Below, one piece after another: positions 2,170 through 23,515 of a stretch of 38,650 bases of DNA. The DNA comes from a virus. The stretch is from IMG/VR virus record IMGVR_UViG_3300010210_000001, positions 1 through 38,650 of that record. One strand, written 5' to 3'. Position 1 is the stretch's first letter, and each line of letters begins with the position of its first letter. A model generated the notes under the pieces. The model saw nothing but the letters and a program-made list of their open reading frames with translations, did no database searches and had not been told where the DNA came from. The position numbers and the translations under genes are program-made.

Positions 2170-2252
2170 AAGTACCTCTTGATGATCGTTTAATCTGATA
2201 CCTATAATTTGATTAAAATGAAAGTATTCGGCAGGAATGAAAGCGGTTTGTG

Positions 2253-7888: not shown

Positions 7889-8627
7889 CTTTCACTAGCT
7901 CCATTTTCAATATGTGACTATCCAGACGCTTCACTGTCTCAGACAGTGCCTGGACATATGCCCAAGTCCCTGACTGCCAAGCCTGACCAAACGGGTAAAG
8001 CCCTGACCACGAGGCCGGGAGTTCAAAACTTAAGCGACGGATGTTTTGTGTAACATCTGCAAGCACCGAGGCAGCTAGTTCCGCCCGCATTCGAGGCGAT
8101 ACAATTGGCCAGGTACCTTTGTTTGCACCATCGCTAAGGGTCTCAAATGTCTGGGGGTAGATTGGTTCTACATTCTGCTGATCTAGGTATGCGCTATTCT
8201 CATAACTAACTGGTACCGGCATTTGGTAAAAGTCCGCAACAACCAGTTCAGGATCTGGATGGTTTTCGCAAATCACATCTATTTGGAACTCATACAGAGC
8301 AAAGTTTTTCCTGGTTACATTTCCAAGGGTTTCCACTCTTAAGCTATAAGATCCAGAGGGATACAACGCACCAAGAACACGCTCTTCATCCTCGGCCGTC
8401 AGGCTGATCGGATCATTATTCCTGATTGATGTTCGAATAGATTCATGCAGAGGATATATTTCAGAATCAACACCACAGATAGCAAATGAACTCCGGATCT
8501 TATCGTATTGAGCCCCCAGATCACGCACATCCCAGTATCCACCCTCAAACTCTCTCCAGATCAATGCCAGGCCATGCTCAACCTTGATCGGGTACTGCAA
8601 ATCGCACTGTATCCCGTTAATCTGCAT
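7878..8627 (-). CDS. tail protein, distal-tail-like position
   Basis: 249 residues, starting three bases after the tape-measure stop with a GGGGTGA ribosome site inside the end of the tape-measure gene. No family recognised. The protein looks compact and mixed alpha/beta with several Trp and Tyr residues and no membrane segment. In siphophages the gene directly after the tape measure usually encodes the distal tail protein or a minor tail protein joining tube to tip, and that is the likely role here. It overlaps the next tail-tip gene by 11 bases, which suggests coupled translation. Confidence 0.5.
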   Translation of the reverse strand: MQINGIQCDLQYPIKVEHGLALIWREFEGGYWDVRDLGAQYDKIRSSFAICGVDSEIYPLHESIRTSIRNNDPISLTAEDEERVLGALYPSGSYSLRVETLGNVTRKNFALYEFQIDVICENHPDPELVVADFYQMPVPVSYENSAYLDQQNVEPIYPQTFETLSDGANKGTWPIVSPRMRAELAASVLADVTQNIRRLSFELPASWSGLYPFGQAWQSGTWAYVQALSETVKRLDSHILKMELVKDVS

Positions 8628-14006: not shown

Positions 14007-14530
14007 ACACCAGCCTCCACGATTGCAGCTCTCATAGCATCACCTAACCGTTTCTGGTGTGGTCCCCAGCCAGCATCAAGAGCTCTTTCAGGAAATGGAT
14101 TTGGATCCACGGCACCAACCTGATGGCCTCGGCTATAAACAAATCTGCCTGTCTTGGGATCTACCCAACGCAGGGTTTCTTTTTCAACTGGCTTAATAAA
14201 CATTGCAGGGCGCCCGGTGACAACGTGTACAGCGTGGGGAGCGAGCGTTCTGTCAACGAATACGCGCCCTGCAAATGCGCCTGTATGCTCCACATCAATA
14301 GCCTGGTGCAAAGAGCGAAGCATTGACCGATTGACGCCAAATGGATCGTCAATCGGATATTCATCACTCGCCTGCTTTTTGGCTTTGGGAGCCTCATCAA
14401 TCATCCTATCCCGGAAATCTTCAAGAGAGTTCATCATAGCGACACGCACATGTTTTGATACCACCATGGGCGCTTTGCCCAAGGCGTTTATCAAATCCAT
14501 TGCTTTTTCATCGCTAAGACGAACTTGCAT
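14003..14530 (-). CDS. HK97 gp10-like head-tail joining protein
   Basis: 175 residues with the layout of the HK97 gp10 (neck/tail completion) family: helical N-terminus, then a segment LAPHAVHVVTGRPAMFI corresponding to the usual 'APYA..vE.Gt' region, and the C-terminal signature NPFPERALDAGW followed by a helix ending in AAIVEAGV. Such proteins join head and tail. The ATG at 14530 has an AGGGG ribosome site two bases after the previous stop, and the stop overlaps the next gene. It is somewhat longer than many relatives because of the loop at about 115-135 (Arg/Gly-rich). Confidence 0.75.
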   Translation of the reverse strand: MQVRLSDEKAMDLINALGKAPMVVSKHVRVAMMNSLEDFRDRMIDEAPKAKKQASDEYPIDDPFGVNRSMLRSLHQAIDVEHTGAFAGRVFVDRTLAPHAVHVVTGRPAMFIKPVEKETLRWVDPKTGRFVYSRGHQVGAVDPNPFPERALDAGWGPHQKRLGDAMRAAIVEAGV

Positions 14531-15372: not shown

Positions 15373-16287
15373 TTAAGGCAGTGTAACAAACGGTTCGACA
15401 CCTTGCGCAAACTGACGCGAAGTGATGATTGGGGTGTCATACCACTGAGTGATCATCTGACCAACATCATTGGTTTTTGATGACGTACGCATTACGGTTT
15501 CACCATACTTGTCTTCCAAGATATTCCGCATAAACGGAGACATCATCAGAACAGTTTTCCCACCATCATCAGGGTACACGCTTTCGATCATATTGTTGAT
15601 CTGTAGTTTGGTGGGCACGTTGCTTGCGTCGATGTTTACAATCGCTGCAGTCATACGAGTTGGGTTTGCAACAATGGCTCCCAGCATTGTCTTTAGCTCG
15701 AATTCCCAGCCGGTGATCCCTTGAGCGTTAGAATGCTTGTTTCCGCCATTCAACGCTTCAAGCGCCAACAATTTAGCTGCAGATGTCGATGCTGCATTGA
15801 TAGCCAAACCACACTCTTCATCGACAAAACGCACAGCCAGGATGGAGAAATTGTCATCACCGGCCCCTTTGATTGACTCCACATTCTCTGCAGCAATGGC
15901 AGCAGATGCGTACACATCATAAATGAGGCTTTTTTCAATCGAGTTTCCGGTTTTCATGATGATGCGGGGAAAACGCCCATCGATGTACTTTGCCAGGTTT
16001 CCACCAGAAAGAGCAATCACTTTGTCTTCGGAGACAAAGATCTTACCGCCCACAACCTGAAGATCATCAGATCCAAGATCTGTATCAACCTTCAGAGTAG
16101 CTGGAGCGTCGTCCAGATCCCGCATACTTCCACCAACCACGTCTGACACAATACCATACTTATGCTGTAGCGCATGGTTTGCTTCAAACACTTCAATTTC
16201 TTTGAGAATGTTGTTTCCCTGAGTCAGGTTATCAACAATCACTTCCTGTTCGCCACCGAGGGTGGCAGCCATTTCCTGAAACAGCAT
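15373..16287 (-). CDS. major capsid protein
   Basis: 304 residues resembling the GP7/Bbp17 group of HK97-fold capsid proteins (epsilon15, BPP-1). An N-terminal arm (1-50) is followed by a compact core containing DDLQVVGGKIFV, a conserved helix region around 110-180 (SLIYDVYASAAIA, VDEECGLAINAA), and a C-terminal part with DGGKTVLMMSPFMRNILED and WYDTPIITSRQ typical of this group. The ATG follows GGAG, which overlaps the end of the scaffold gene. It lies between scaffold and cement genes. No N-terminal scaffold or protease segment is fused to it. Confidence 0.85.
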   Translation of the reverse strand: MLFQEMAATLGGEQEVIVDNLTQGNNILKEIEVFEANHALQHKYGIVSDVVGGSMRDLDDAPATLKVDTDLGSDDLQVVGGKIFVSEDKVIALSGGNLAKYIDGRFPRIIMKTGNSIEKSLIYDVYASAAIAAENVESIKGAGDDNFSILAVRFVDEECGLAINAASTSAAKLLALEALNGGNKHSNAQGITGWEFELKTMLGAIVANPTRMTAAIVNIDASNVPTKLQINNMIESVYPDDGGKTVLMMSPFMRNILEDKYGETVMRTSSKTNDVGQMITQWYDTPIITSRQFAQGVEPFVTLP

Positions 16288-16289
16288 AT

Positions 16290-16982
16290 TTATTCTCCTT
16301 TGTTGCCAAGCAAATGCTCAGACAATTTGACAGGGCCAGTGGCACCACCACCGTTTTGCCCAGATCCAGTTCCACCACGGGGAGGCTCACCAAAAAAATC
16401 AGGCTCAGACTTTGCATAACCTTCAATTGCTTCATCCAGAGACTTTCCACCAAATTTCCATTCACCAGATTCTTCGTCATACTCGGACTGGTCTGCAAGG
16501 TCACGAACCGCAATGCGAGAAAACTTGCTGTTGATCCCTTTCTTGGTCAGGGAAGCAGCAAGAGATTCATTGCGATCCTTTTCACGTAGCATCTGTTGGT
16601 CTTTTTTGGATTTGTCTTGGATATCCTGCAAGGTTTTTCGAGTCTGGTCCAGCTCTTTTTGCATCTTCTTGACGGTCTTGTCAGATTCTGAGACTTTCCC
16701 GGTTGTTTTTTCTAAATACGCATCCAGGACATCATCAATGTCGGCATCAGAGTCCTCACCAGGCAGTTCAACATCAAGCTTTTCAGACACTTTTTTAAGT
16801 GCAGATTCAGCTTTCTGAGCACGCTGTCTGTACTTTTTAGATTCTTTCAGAAGCTCTTCAGACTTTGAAGCGCTTGATTCAAGATCCTTTACAGCAGCGG
16901 TAATATCTGCTTGAATACTCTGCTTTTCAGAATCGTCTGATGCAGCGAGTAATTTTTTGATGAGTTCTTTGATTTTGTCCAT
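16290..16982 (-). CDS. scaffolding protein
   Basis: 230 residues, strongly charged, long coiled coil from about residue 5 to 150 (Lys/Glu/Asp/Gln-rich), then a more ordered piece (GINSKFSRIAVRDL) and a Gly-rich C-terminus (TGSGQNGGG). These are hallmarks of internal scaffolds that guide procapsid assembly, and it lies immediately before the capsid gene. No serine protease motif is seen, so it appears to be scaffold only. Its AGGAG ribosome site lies within the 3' arm of a long hairpin upstream, which suggests control of its translation. Confidence 0.8.
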   Translation of the reverse strand: MDKIKELIKKLLAASDDSEKQSIQADITAAVKDLESSASKSEELLKESKKYRQRAQKAESALKKVSEKLDVELPGEDSDADIDDVLDAYLEKTTGKVSESDKTVKKMQKELDQTRKTLQDIQDKSKKDQQMLREKDRNESLAASLTKKGINSKFSRIAVRDLADQSEYDEESGEWKFGGKSLDEAIEGYAKSEPDFFGEPPRGGTGSGQNGGGATGPVKLSEHLLGNKGE

Positions 16983-16986
16983 GATT

Positions 16987-17060
16987 TCTCCTAGATTCTG
17001 ATCGTTCGCTGTCTGCGATGACTGCCAGCTACTGCTAGCGTTTAATCAGAATTTAGGAGA
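16987..17060 (-). promoter_or_regulatory. long hairpin covering the scaffold gene's ribosome site
   Basis: The arms 16987-17002 and 17045-17060 pair at 15 of 16 positions, with a 42-base loop. In the minus-strand mRNA the 3' arm contains TAGGAGA, the Shine-Dalgarno of the scaffold gene, ending four bases before its ATG. The loop can form a smaller inner stem (CGCT...AGCG). Reading this as translational control or an RNase III processing site is inference. Confidence 0.65.
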
Positions 17061-17097
17061 TGAAGTGTTTAACGGCAGGAATAATGTTTAAGTGCGA

Positions 17098-17475
17098 TTA
17101 GAAATGGTCGGGTTCAAATTGCACGGCCAATTCTTCAGCAGTAGGAGCTTCGGGCAAAGGCTCAGAAAATTTGACTTTCGCCTGACACAATTCAATTATG
17201 GAACGACACTGCATCCAGAAACCTAGAGGGTTGGATAGTTTTGGAACAATAAGGAGGGGATGAACGAACAAATCTGAATCCCCTGTGTCAAACTCCGCTC
17301 TCCAGTATCCAGTCTCACGCGCATTCTCTACAGCCGATTTTATATTTTGAAGCATCGCCCACTCATCAACGTCTTTGGAACGATCAAATTTACCGAAACT
17401 AGCTTTCACATCTCCATCTTTCCATTCAAGGTAAGCAACAAATGCTCCCGTGCGGTCTGTAATTGTAATTTTCAT
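17098..17475 (-). CDS. hypothetical protein coupled to the MuF protein
   Basis: 125 residues. The ATG overlaps the stop of the upstream MuF gene (TAATG), so the two are probably made together. It starts with a small beta-rich segment (KITITDRTGAFVAYLEWKDGD), followed by helices and an acidic C-terminus (PEAPTAEELAVQFEPDHF). No known family and no membrane segment. In phages whose MuF protein carries a toxin-like C-terminal domain, the next small gene is sometimes an immunity protein; the acidic character and tight coupling fit that, but a plain head accessory protein is equally possible. Confidence 0.55.
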   Translation of the reverse strand: MKITITDRTGAFVAYLEWKDGDVKASFGKFDRSKDVDEWAMLQNIKSAVENARETGYWRAEFDTGDSDLFVHPLLIVPKLSNPLGFWMQCRSIIELCQAKVKFSEPLPEAPTAEELAVQFEPDHF

Positions 17476-19688
17476 TAGAATTCTCCGGAAAGAAAAGCCC
17501 TAGTAAGCAAGAAATGCTCTCTATGGTTTAATATAAGATTTGTAGGGTTCAAAAACAAATTTCTAACTCCTTCCGTGAAAAACTCATTCGCTTTGAATTC
17601 TTTATCATTGATAACAACACCACCTTTCCCGTCAGGCATGACTTCCCATGGGTAAATACATCCAGTATAGTTTGTAACGAAACCGTCTTTCGCCACAACT
17701 ACCTTCTGCACAATTGCTTTTTTTTGACCATTGGGCAGAATTTCTATCCCCTTATAATATTTAACCTCAATTTCCTTCATGTTTTTCTTTATGAAAGTCG
17801 TAGCAATTTTGACCGACCTGTCATATTGCTCTTTTGGAAGTTGAAATTGAATGTGATGGGTATATTCATGAACGAGCGCATCAACATCATCAACATCCCA
17901 TTCGATTATTTTTGTTTTTTGACTATAGGAACTCTGAAGCTTCACGGGTGACTTTTTGATTTTTGTTACAAGCCCAGCAGGGTTCATTTTACCGGAAAGA
18001 AATGCAGAGTAGAAGTTTTCTACTTCTTTTGCCTTGGATTTGTGTTGGCTCAACTCCTGAGATAGTATGGTGCTAAAGTCCTGAATTTTTGTTGAATGAT
18101 TTCCCATCCCGATTTTGCTCAATAAATCATTGTGTTGCATCTGATCTTTCAATTGGTCCATGAATGCTTCACTCACTGCGCGACTTCCTGCAACTGACAG
18201 TTTATCACGAATGCGTTCAAATTCTTTAAGCTGACCTGGAAACGTTCGTTTATGCGATATTCTCAAAACAAGCTTTTCGTCTTCAATCGGTATTTCTTTT
18301 GGAAAGTCTTCGTTTAAGTAATCTCCGTATTTCCCCTTGAAATACTTCATTGCTGGCACTTTACGAAGTACTCTATTTAGGTCTCTTTCTCCCTGTTCAA
18401 TGATCTGATCATATGACTTTGGCTCAAAGTATCTTTTGCCTGGATTCGCTGTAGCCACATCCTTCAGAGTTTCGGACGCGTCGAAAAAATAAACTTGTTT
18501 CAACTGCTGGGAAGGCGATGCGAATGCAGGATTGTTGTATACCTTAGGCAGATACCCAGATTTAAGCTGTACCAGGCCACCTTTTGGCATTACCTTCTCC
18601 ATAGGCTTGCCTGCTGATAAATCCTGATTCATGGCCTTAAAAAGCCCCTGGTTTAGCTCCTCTTTTGATTGCTTGATTGGTTCTAACCCATAAATAGGCA
18701 TTAGCCTGGACTGGCCAAATGGATGGATAGGCAAAACTGGGGCGTTGACTTTGGAATAAACGCCCGGGCCAGCACCAGAATCCGCCTTAGCGAGTAAATC
18801 ACAAATATCATAGATATCATGCAACGGAGAAAGCCGAAAACGAAACCCCACACACTGCGGATCATTTTCTACGCGAGCCATTCGTCCAAGGTGAGCTGCT
18901 CTCTCTGTCTCTGTAAATGCAATGCGTTTGGCTGCATATCTGGTCTTTTCAAATACAGCTGTCCTGATAGCATCCTCTACTTTTCGTTTAGATCCAGATT
19001 CCACCGCATCTAACAGCTCATTGTAAGCTGCTTTCAAAGGTGCTGTCCGGAGAGTTTGAGTAGCACGACGCAGAGCCTTGACCTTTTTATCAACTCCTGG
19101 AATCAGCTCACCATCGATGCGCAGACGAGCCATTTTATCAAGCGACTGGTGGATCTCTTGTTTGTTCACTAGGTTGGCTTCAACAAAATCGCCGTATTTT
19201 CCTTTGATCCTCTTTCCATTGATAATCTTGGTACCGTATCCATACCCCTCATACAAGTCCAGAGCCAGCTTATCAGCTATTTCCTTCTGCCGGATTGCAC
19301 GACTCACGTTCGATTTGATGCCGTTTAGGGCTTCCTTGGATGCTCCGGTGGTCAGATTAGACAAACTAAGCCCTGAGGTATCCCAGGGCCGTTTTGTGAG
19401 TGTGTTTTCAAGTACTTTACGCTGTACTGGGCTGATAGTTGCATCCAAATCTATTCCATATCCCGCCAGCGTAGATTGGATCATAGCCGTTTTTACAGAG
19501 TCTCGAATCTCATCTGCAACTTTTAAGTCTCGAAAGCTTGACTCCAAAGCATCTTCAAATGGGATGCCATTCTGGTACCGGCGAAACACCTCCCCACGAA
19601 AACGCCGCGCAGCCTGGTCAATCTTAATTGAAGACTTTTGCAGAATGTCCTGGTAACTATCCCAGGATTTTTTCTCGTTAAGCTCCAA
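17475..19688 (-). CDS. MuF-type head morphogenesis protein with C-terminal HExxH metallopeptidase-like domain
   Basis: 737 residues, starting at TTG 19688, chosen because GAGGAG lies seven bases upstream in the portal gene tail and the first ATG is 67 codons later. The N-terminal ~335 residues match phage minor head (MuF-like) proteins that bind the portal: long helices, then ARVENDPQCVG, DIYDICDLLA and the end motif LPIHPFGQSRLMPI, the counterpart of P..H.NCRC. After a ~250-residue linker comes VHEYTHHIQ at 606-614, a clear HExxH zinc motif (His607, Glu608, His611), with a possible third ligand in ANEFFTEG at 700-707. MuF proteins are usually 300-500 residues, so about 400 extra residues form a cargo domain likely packaged in the head. 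Confidence 0.8.
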   Translation of the reverse strand: MELNEKKSWDSYQDILQKSSIKIDQAARRFRGEVFRRYQNGIPFEDALESSFRDLKVADEIRDSVKTAMIQSTLAGYGIDLDATISPVQRKVLENTLTKRPWDTSGLSLSNLTTGASKEALNGIKSNVSRAIRQKEIADKLALDLYEGYGYGTKIINGKRIKGKYGDFVEANLVNKQEIHQSLDKMARLRIDGELIPGVDKKVKALRRATQTLRTAPLKAAYNELLDAVESGSKRKVEDAIRTAVFEKTRYAAKRIAFTETERAAHLGRMARVENDPQCVGFRFRLSPLHDIYDICDLLAKADSGAGPGVYSKVNAPVLPIHPFGQSRLMPIYGLEPIKQSKEELNQGLFKAMNQDLSAGKPMEKVMPKGGLVQLKSGYLPKVYNNPAFASPSQQLKQVYFFDASETLKDVATANPGKRYFEPKSYDQIIEQGERDLNRVLRKVPAMKYFKGKYGDYLNEDFPKEIPIEDEKLVLRISHKRTFPGQLKEFERIRDKLSVAGSRAVSEAFMDQLKDQMQHNDLLSKIGMGNHSTKIQDFSTILSQELSQHKSKAKEVENFYSAFLSGKMNPAGLVTKIKKSPVKLQSSYSQKTKIIEWDVDDVDALVHEYTHHIQFQLPKEQYDRSVKIATTFIKKNMKEIEVKYYKGIEILPNGQKKAIVQKVVVAKDGFVTNYTGCIYPWEVMPDGKGGVVINDKEFKANEFFTEGVRNLFLNPTNLILNHREHFLLTRAFLSGEF

Positions 19689-23068: not shown

Positions 23069-23459
23069 CGTCTTCTTCCTCATCCAGCATCTGCTCAATT
23101 GCACTCAGTTGGCTACTGAGAGGGCTCTCAAGGTCTTTCTTTTCCCGGACATTATGATCATGAGAAAGCAAAAGCGCAGAAATCTTTGAGGTGTACTCAC
23201 CTGTAAGCCCTCCCTCCTGCAGAGCTGCCTTCTGTACGTCCTTAAACAGCTCATATGCCTCAGCAAAACTTTTTGATCGCGCCTGTAAGTCTTTTAGTCG
23301 CTTGCTTGGGAATCCGTGTTTATAGCAAAAACGCTCGATAAATAAATATTTACGAGCCTCTTCGCGGTCTTCAAGTTCTGCTAAATTTCCAACCCAAGTC
23401 AGTAATTTCTCAGCAAGCTCATCCGCGTACTTCTTTGTATAGGATCTTGGTCTTGCCAC
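23061..23459 (-). CDS. terS: terminase small subunit
   Basis: 132 residues beginning at a GTG (MARPRSYT). Small terminase subunits recognise the packaging site and load the large subunit. Helical N-terminus with Lys/Arg and a likely helix-turn-helix (about 45-65, RFCYKHGFPSKRLKDLQ), a central helix pair, and a very acidic C-terminus (LDEEEDDE) likely to contact the large subunit. It overlaps the large-subunit gene. The GTG lies at the base of a nine-pair hairpin, so its start is probably controlled. No in-frame ATG is found near; an out-of-frame ATG overlaps the GTG. Confidence 0.8.
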   Translation of the reverse strand: MARPRSYTKKYADELAEKLLTWVGNLAELEDREEARKYLFIERFCYKHGFPSKRLKDLQARSKSFAEAYELFKDVQKAALQEGGLTGEYTSKISALLLSHDHNVREKKDLESPLSSQLSAIEQMLDEEEDDE

Positions 23460-23477
23460 ATCCTAAAAGTGGCAAGA
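23451..23477 (-). promoter_or_regulatory. hairpin covering the terS start codon
   Basis: Perfect nine-base inverted repeat (TCTTGCCAC / GTGGCAAGA) with a nine-base loop. In the mRNA the AGGA ribosome site is in the loop and the GTG start is the first triplet of the 3' arm. It could block terS translation, or serve as a protein-binding operator or packaging-site element. Confidence 0.7.
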
Positions 23478-23515
23478 AAGGAATATTTTCGCAGGAATAA
23501 AGATTTTTAACGCTC

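Follow-up and report, generated by a model that had tools for sequence, protein, structure and literature searches.

The window, by which we mean the whole 38,650-nt stretch analyzed, is a stand-alone virus record whose late genes lie on the minus strand; the RNA to be folded is therefore that of the minus strand. In the direction of transcription, the late genes comprise the terminase small subunit (start at 23459), the terminase large subunit, the portal, a MuF-like protein of 737 aa and a 125-aa protein, followed by a gap of 115 nt (16983-17097), which is the widest among the head genes, as the earlier note on this DNA had observed. Beyond the gap lie a gene for a 230-aa protein, a GP7-like major capsid gene, and the tail genes. 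The 230-aa protein gave no convincing family match in Pfam, PHROGs, or the PDB, and the label "scaffold" used here is taken solely from its position and its charged, helical-looking composition. The features of the leader and of the related sites are collected in Table 1. The MuF-like protein (17475-19688, minus strand; L004:1671-3875) contains an HEYTHH (HExxH) motif in its C-terminal part that is conserved in both phages, which suggests a zinc-peptidase-like domain fused to MuF.

Table 1. Features of the putative scaffold leader and of the other box-headed genes in the window
Feature	Positions	Strand	Sequence	Remarks
Putative scaffold gene (230 aa)	16290-16982	-		Assigned by position; buried start
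Major capsid gene (GP7-like)	15373-16287	-		Pfam PF20911, 5.7e-9
Hairpin, 3' arm	16987-17002	-	5'-AUCAGAAUCUAGGAGA (mRNA)	Holds Shine-Dalgarno AGGAG (16988-16992)
Hairpin, 42-nt loop	17003-17044	-	Inner stem GCUAGC-AGUA-GCUGGC	Largely kept in G002 (CCAGC..GCUGG)
Hairpin, 5' arm	17045-17060	-	5'-UCUCCUAAAUUCUGAU (mRNA)	Anti-Shine-Dalgarno side
Putative weak -10-like hexamer	17050-17055	-	TAAATT	In 5' arm; TAATTT in G002; equal distance from box in both
Box, scaffold leader	17075-17084	-	TTATTCCTGC	10 bases; 14 nt upstream of 5' arm; candidate late-promoter/activator element
Box, terminase	23491-23500	-	TTATTCCTGC	Second exact copy; ahead of terminase small subunit
Terminase stem	23451-23477	-	UCUUGCCAC/GUGGCAAGA	GTG start (23459) in 3' arm
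Variant box	2231-2240	-	TCATTCCTGC	Ahead of lysis-end gene (1906-2169)

The gap contains a long inverted repeat, the arms of which read TCTCCTAGATTCTGAT (16987-17002) and ATCAGAATTTAGGAGA (17045-17060) on the plus strand, with 15 of the 16 positions paired. The AGGAG sequence is located 5 nt ahead of the ATG codon of the putative scaffold gene at 16982, and a weak GCG.. stem is found in the loop besides the GCUAGC/GCUGGC stem. The coordinates, pairing, and loop length given in the earlier note proved exact, and the inner stem and the AGGAG that it had placed in the 3' arm are both present. No other inverted repeat in the window has arms of 16 nt with one mismatch or none and a loop not exceeding 60 nt, whereas random sequences of the same length and first-order (dinucleotide) make-up contained a mean of 0.125 such repeats and had any at all in 3 of 40 cases. 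The gap folds with an energy of -32.8 kcal/mol, compared with -18.5 +/- 3.1 kcal/mol for its shuffles (z = -4.6), and 1 of 5000 shuffles was as stable as the native sequence; the statement that such pairing is unlikely by chance is thus upheld. The hairpin gave no score above the gathering threshold for known Rfam RNA families. The U-tract that, together with a GC stem, characterizes an intrinsic terminator is absent, and the hairpin is therefore not one. By a measure of stability for base composition, the most stable folds in the window are those at 1271-1410 (z = -4.7) and 14431-14530 (z = -4.2), both on the minus strand, which surpass the scaffold hairpin on this measure.

Searches of viral and genome contigs with capsid, scaffold, portal, and MuF queries yielded two relatives with the scaffold-capsid region, namely, G001, which is near-identical, and G002, in which the capsid is 60% and the putative scaffold 50% identical. 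When the leader was sought in two scans with exact DNA patterns, the same two relatives alone were returned, and the remaining matches fold differently. The distant MuF relatives L012 and L013 were set aside as comparators because scaffold-capsid genes are absent downstream, as were Nitratiruptor and Roseobacter phages, whose gene content is too distant. The hairpin of G001 is identical to that of the window, with zero changes. G002 has a hairpin at the equivalent position (z = -4.8; 1 of 5000 shuffles as stable). As the MAFFT alignment was wrong in the 3' arms, the pairs were counted after manual alignment with CTCCT/AGGAG and GAT/ATC as anchors. Every aligned pair is retained, and four of them carry two-sided compensatory changes: U-A to A-U in the outer helix, and A-U to U-A, C-G to A-U, and U-A to C-G in the middle helix. 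The apical stem (AGCAG..GCUGGCAG) is retained in both sequence and pairing between the window and G002, nearly letter for letter. The compensatory changes that the earlier note had proposed to look for are therefore found, in one independent relative. As two-sided changes that preserve pairing indicate selection on RNA containing both arms, the hairpin is, on comparative sequence grounds, almost certainly a selected RNA structure; with two independent lineages, the evidence for selection is strong but not deep. The earlier note had also considered cutting by RNase III, which would free the downstream message, and a long paired stem between two groups of head genes is what such a site would offer. 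However, the G002 stem consists of 6 + 8 pairs separated by an internal loop, which is short for RNase III, and cutting would leave the conservation of the apical sequence unexplained; the proposal found no support, and we consider it highly improbable.

The computed cost of opening the scaffold start is 15.2 kcal/mol, which ranks second among the 44 genes and was reached by none of 1500 shuffles when shuffling was confined to the upstream portion of the gap. The corresponding cost in G002 is 17.4 kcal/mol, which was likewise reached by 0 of 1500 shuffles. By computation, the Shine-Dalgarno sequence is paired with leader RNA further upstream, and the hidden ribosome site described in the earlier note is borne out in that burial exceeds that of all 1500 shuffles in the window and in G002. 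The highest opening cost among the 44 genes (16.5) belongs to the start at 8627 (minus strand), within a tight gene cluster. The capsid gene, directly downstream of the scaffold gene, has the lowest cost of the 44, 2.6 kcal/mol. The suggestion that the hairpin times scaffold and capsid synthesis is accordingly plausible for the scaffold but does not extend to the capsid, which has a start of its own that is the most open in the window. In the folding model, the hairpin is likely to lower scaffold translation from RNA that carries both arms. An origin of the pairing by chance, or as a dyad acting at the DNA level (repressor site, terminator, or transposon scar), could draw on the two-fold symmetry and on nothing else; the relative changes the letters yet keeps the pairing, and 0 of 1500 shuffles match the burial, so that this reading is largely refuted and its probability very small. 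Another possibility is that the hairpin is present in all scaffold mRNA as a constant throttle, which would lower scaffold relative to capsid and set the assembly ratio, and the ranks of the two starts agree with this. On the other hand, a cost of 15 kcal/mol would shut off initiation almost completely instead of adjusting its level.

The TTATTCCTGC box bears on this question. Two exact copies are present in the window versus 0.1 expected, and G002 carries exact copies at both equivalent sites (scaffold and terminase), with the 14-nt spacing to the scaffold hairpin shared. A third exact copy in G002 (10039, plus strand) was set aside, as it is apparently located within a gene encoded on the opposite strand. 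Several differences between the window and G001 precede the terminase box, and the box and the next 70 bases are identical as printed. The three box-headed genes, i.e., the scaffold, terminase small subunit, and lysis-end genes, occupy burial ranks 2, 3, and 4 of 44, respectively, for which the probability with three given genes is 3e-4 in a ranking that was unplanned beforehand. The terminase hairpin is moderately unusual (z = -2.8 in the window and -1.6 in G002), and that of the lysis-end gene is not significant (z = -0.8). The Shine-Dalgarno sequence of the terminase small subunit GTG start is unrecognizable in G002 (9426, minus strand) and too close in the window (23459, minus strand), and this message is possibly leaderless. 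Base pairing between box and loop (CUGCC/GGCAG) was considered, as were boxA and sigma-54 readings of the box; judged by eye, these proved inconsistent between sites and were dropped. From its sequence and placement, the box is a candidate late-promoter element in the window phage and G002. A constant throttle leaves both the box and the other buried box-headed genes unexplained.

We propose that the leader hairpin is a lock on read-through RNA with a promoter inside the hairpin, in the manner of T4 gene e, and we assign this explanation as a whole a probability of about one-half. In read-through RNA from the head genes upstream, the Shine-Dalgarno arm would be paired with the 5' arm, and initiation would be blocked. 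The box would probably be part of a late promoter with the weak -10 within the 5' arm and a start point where the loop begins, at approximately 17043; late RNA made in this way would lack the 5' arm and have a free ribosome site, and it would still carry the small inner hairpin at the front. Transcription starting inside the hairpin is, as a separate claim, rated at slightly below even odds. RNA that starts at least 26 nt past the box loses the 5' arm wholly or mostly, and the computed scaffold cost decreases from 15.2 to approximately 4 kcal/mol, as does that of G002 from 17.4 to approximately 5 or less. The decrease of 11.1 in the window is the largest in the genome, the median being 0.15. 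The same offset from the box would give a leaderless terminase mRNA in both phages. We infer the promoter, the start point, and the on/off use; the costs of the long and the short RNA forms are computed. Several observations weigh against the promoter-containing lock: a sigma-70 scan found no promoter in the 115-nt gap and did not pick up TAAATT, a hexamer that was chosen after the fact; the reason to silence read-through from the head genes is not obvious, given that the two units both appear to be late; the same offset would require a leaderless terminase message; and the data searched contain two independent lineages only. A promoter in the loop accounts for more of what is found around the hairpin, namely, the shared box, the buried starts of the other box-headed genes, and the parallel with phage Mu described below.

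The conserved apical stem may instead signal protein binding, which the earlier note had listed among the possible functions. The hairpin would then be a regulated lock that is opened by a phage RNA-binding protein with the apical stem as its binding site, and the conservation of this stem in sequence and pairing between the phages is in keeping with such a role. A precedent is the late gene mom of Mu, in which a translation-inhibition structure is opened by Com (PMC6483171). Like the scaffold gene, mom is a late gene whose start is covered by a hairpin, with a second, small hairpin next to it; it differs in that its start is not buried by the same measure (3.8). Neither a Com-like protein nor another candidate RNA-binding protein was found among the genes of the window phage that were scanned, and the apical conservation is also compatible with a stem at the 5' end of late RNA, which makes a protein-opened lock unlikely.

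The lock with an internal promoter has a close functional counterpart in phage T4, in which the starts of genes e, soc, 49, and I-TevI are sequestered (PMC3014915). In the case of gene e, RNA reading through early is locked, whereas transcripts from late promoters within the hairpin's 5' strand are without that strand and therefore open (PMC3014915). The opening cost of T4 e by the same measure is 15.4, compared with 15.2 for the scaffold, and the two leaders are alike in having the Shine-Dalgarno sequence in a helix with the upstream leader and a promoter-like box near the 5' arm. In contrast, homology is absent, the gene is a putative scaffold here and the lysis gene e there, and the promoters and both RNA forms of T4 e are experimental, whereas the promoter and start of the window phage are putative. 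If the proposed promoter is right, the lock would work like that of gene e, a likeness of mechanism rather than of demonstrated descent.

In phage Mu, a late promoter, P_I, is located between genes G and I (PMC4461284). Gene I (protease/scaffold; L041:8057, AF083977) has a position equivalent to that of the scaffold gap in the window, i.e., after MuF and one more gene and before scaffold and capsid. The P_I start, as implied by a published 92-mer carrying 20 nt after the start (PMC4461284), falls where the 5' arm of a predicted hairpin ends, a hairpin that covers the ribosome site of gene I. Gene I has an opening cost of 14.8 when read-through RNA is folded (rank 1 of 32) but of 2.4 in RNA from the P_I start, and the start of the capsid gene T has burial rank 32 of 32. 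However, the predicted stem in Mu is short, the region taken as a whole is not unusually stable (z = -0.4), and no sequence similarity to the window leader was seen. P_I is also activated by C, whereas neither a C homologue nor another Mor/C-type match was recognized in the window phage among the regulatory and early proteins and the portion of its small genes that were scanned.

Five further Mu-like phages were compared. The protease/scaffold start ranks second of 20-24 genes in three of the five, with a more open capsid start; in these three, the burial is mostly local, and a nearby transcript start would not relieve it. Comparable burial of the scaffold start is absent in the other two, in P22 gene 8, and in epsilon15 gp6, which counts against the promoter-containing lock as well. 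Such burial is common but not general, and for this reason a constant throttle remains a real rival. The ranks of gene I and T in Mu and those of the three Mu-like phages are in its favor, but the Mu-like ranking is post hoc and two of the five lack the pattern, and we regard a throttle as rather unlikely overall. Scaffold synthesis in P22 is self-limiting, and in a similar manner free scaffold or capsid protein might bind the hairpin and restrain its own synthesis. The conserved apical stem and the location of the hairpin exactly at the scaffold start would suit such feedback; however, the P22 scaffold start is not buried, and as the hairpin needs no ligand for its high stability, little would be gained by a repressor, so that feedback is very unlikely.

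It is a tentative suggestion, which we think will probably not hold in this general form, that phages with a Mu-like head order commonly have the scaffold-capsid promoter inside a locking hairpin and would make scaffold solely from the RNA of that promoter, with the box here also heading a leaderless terminase message and the lysis-end unit. The coordination of scaffold and capsid synthesis at the RNA level is poorly known in phages. Here, a scaffold start under a conserved lock is next to the capsid start, the most open of all, which makes for a concrete and testable switch; the comparison with Mu suggests that a laboratory phage whose promoter is mapped could serve for such a test.
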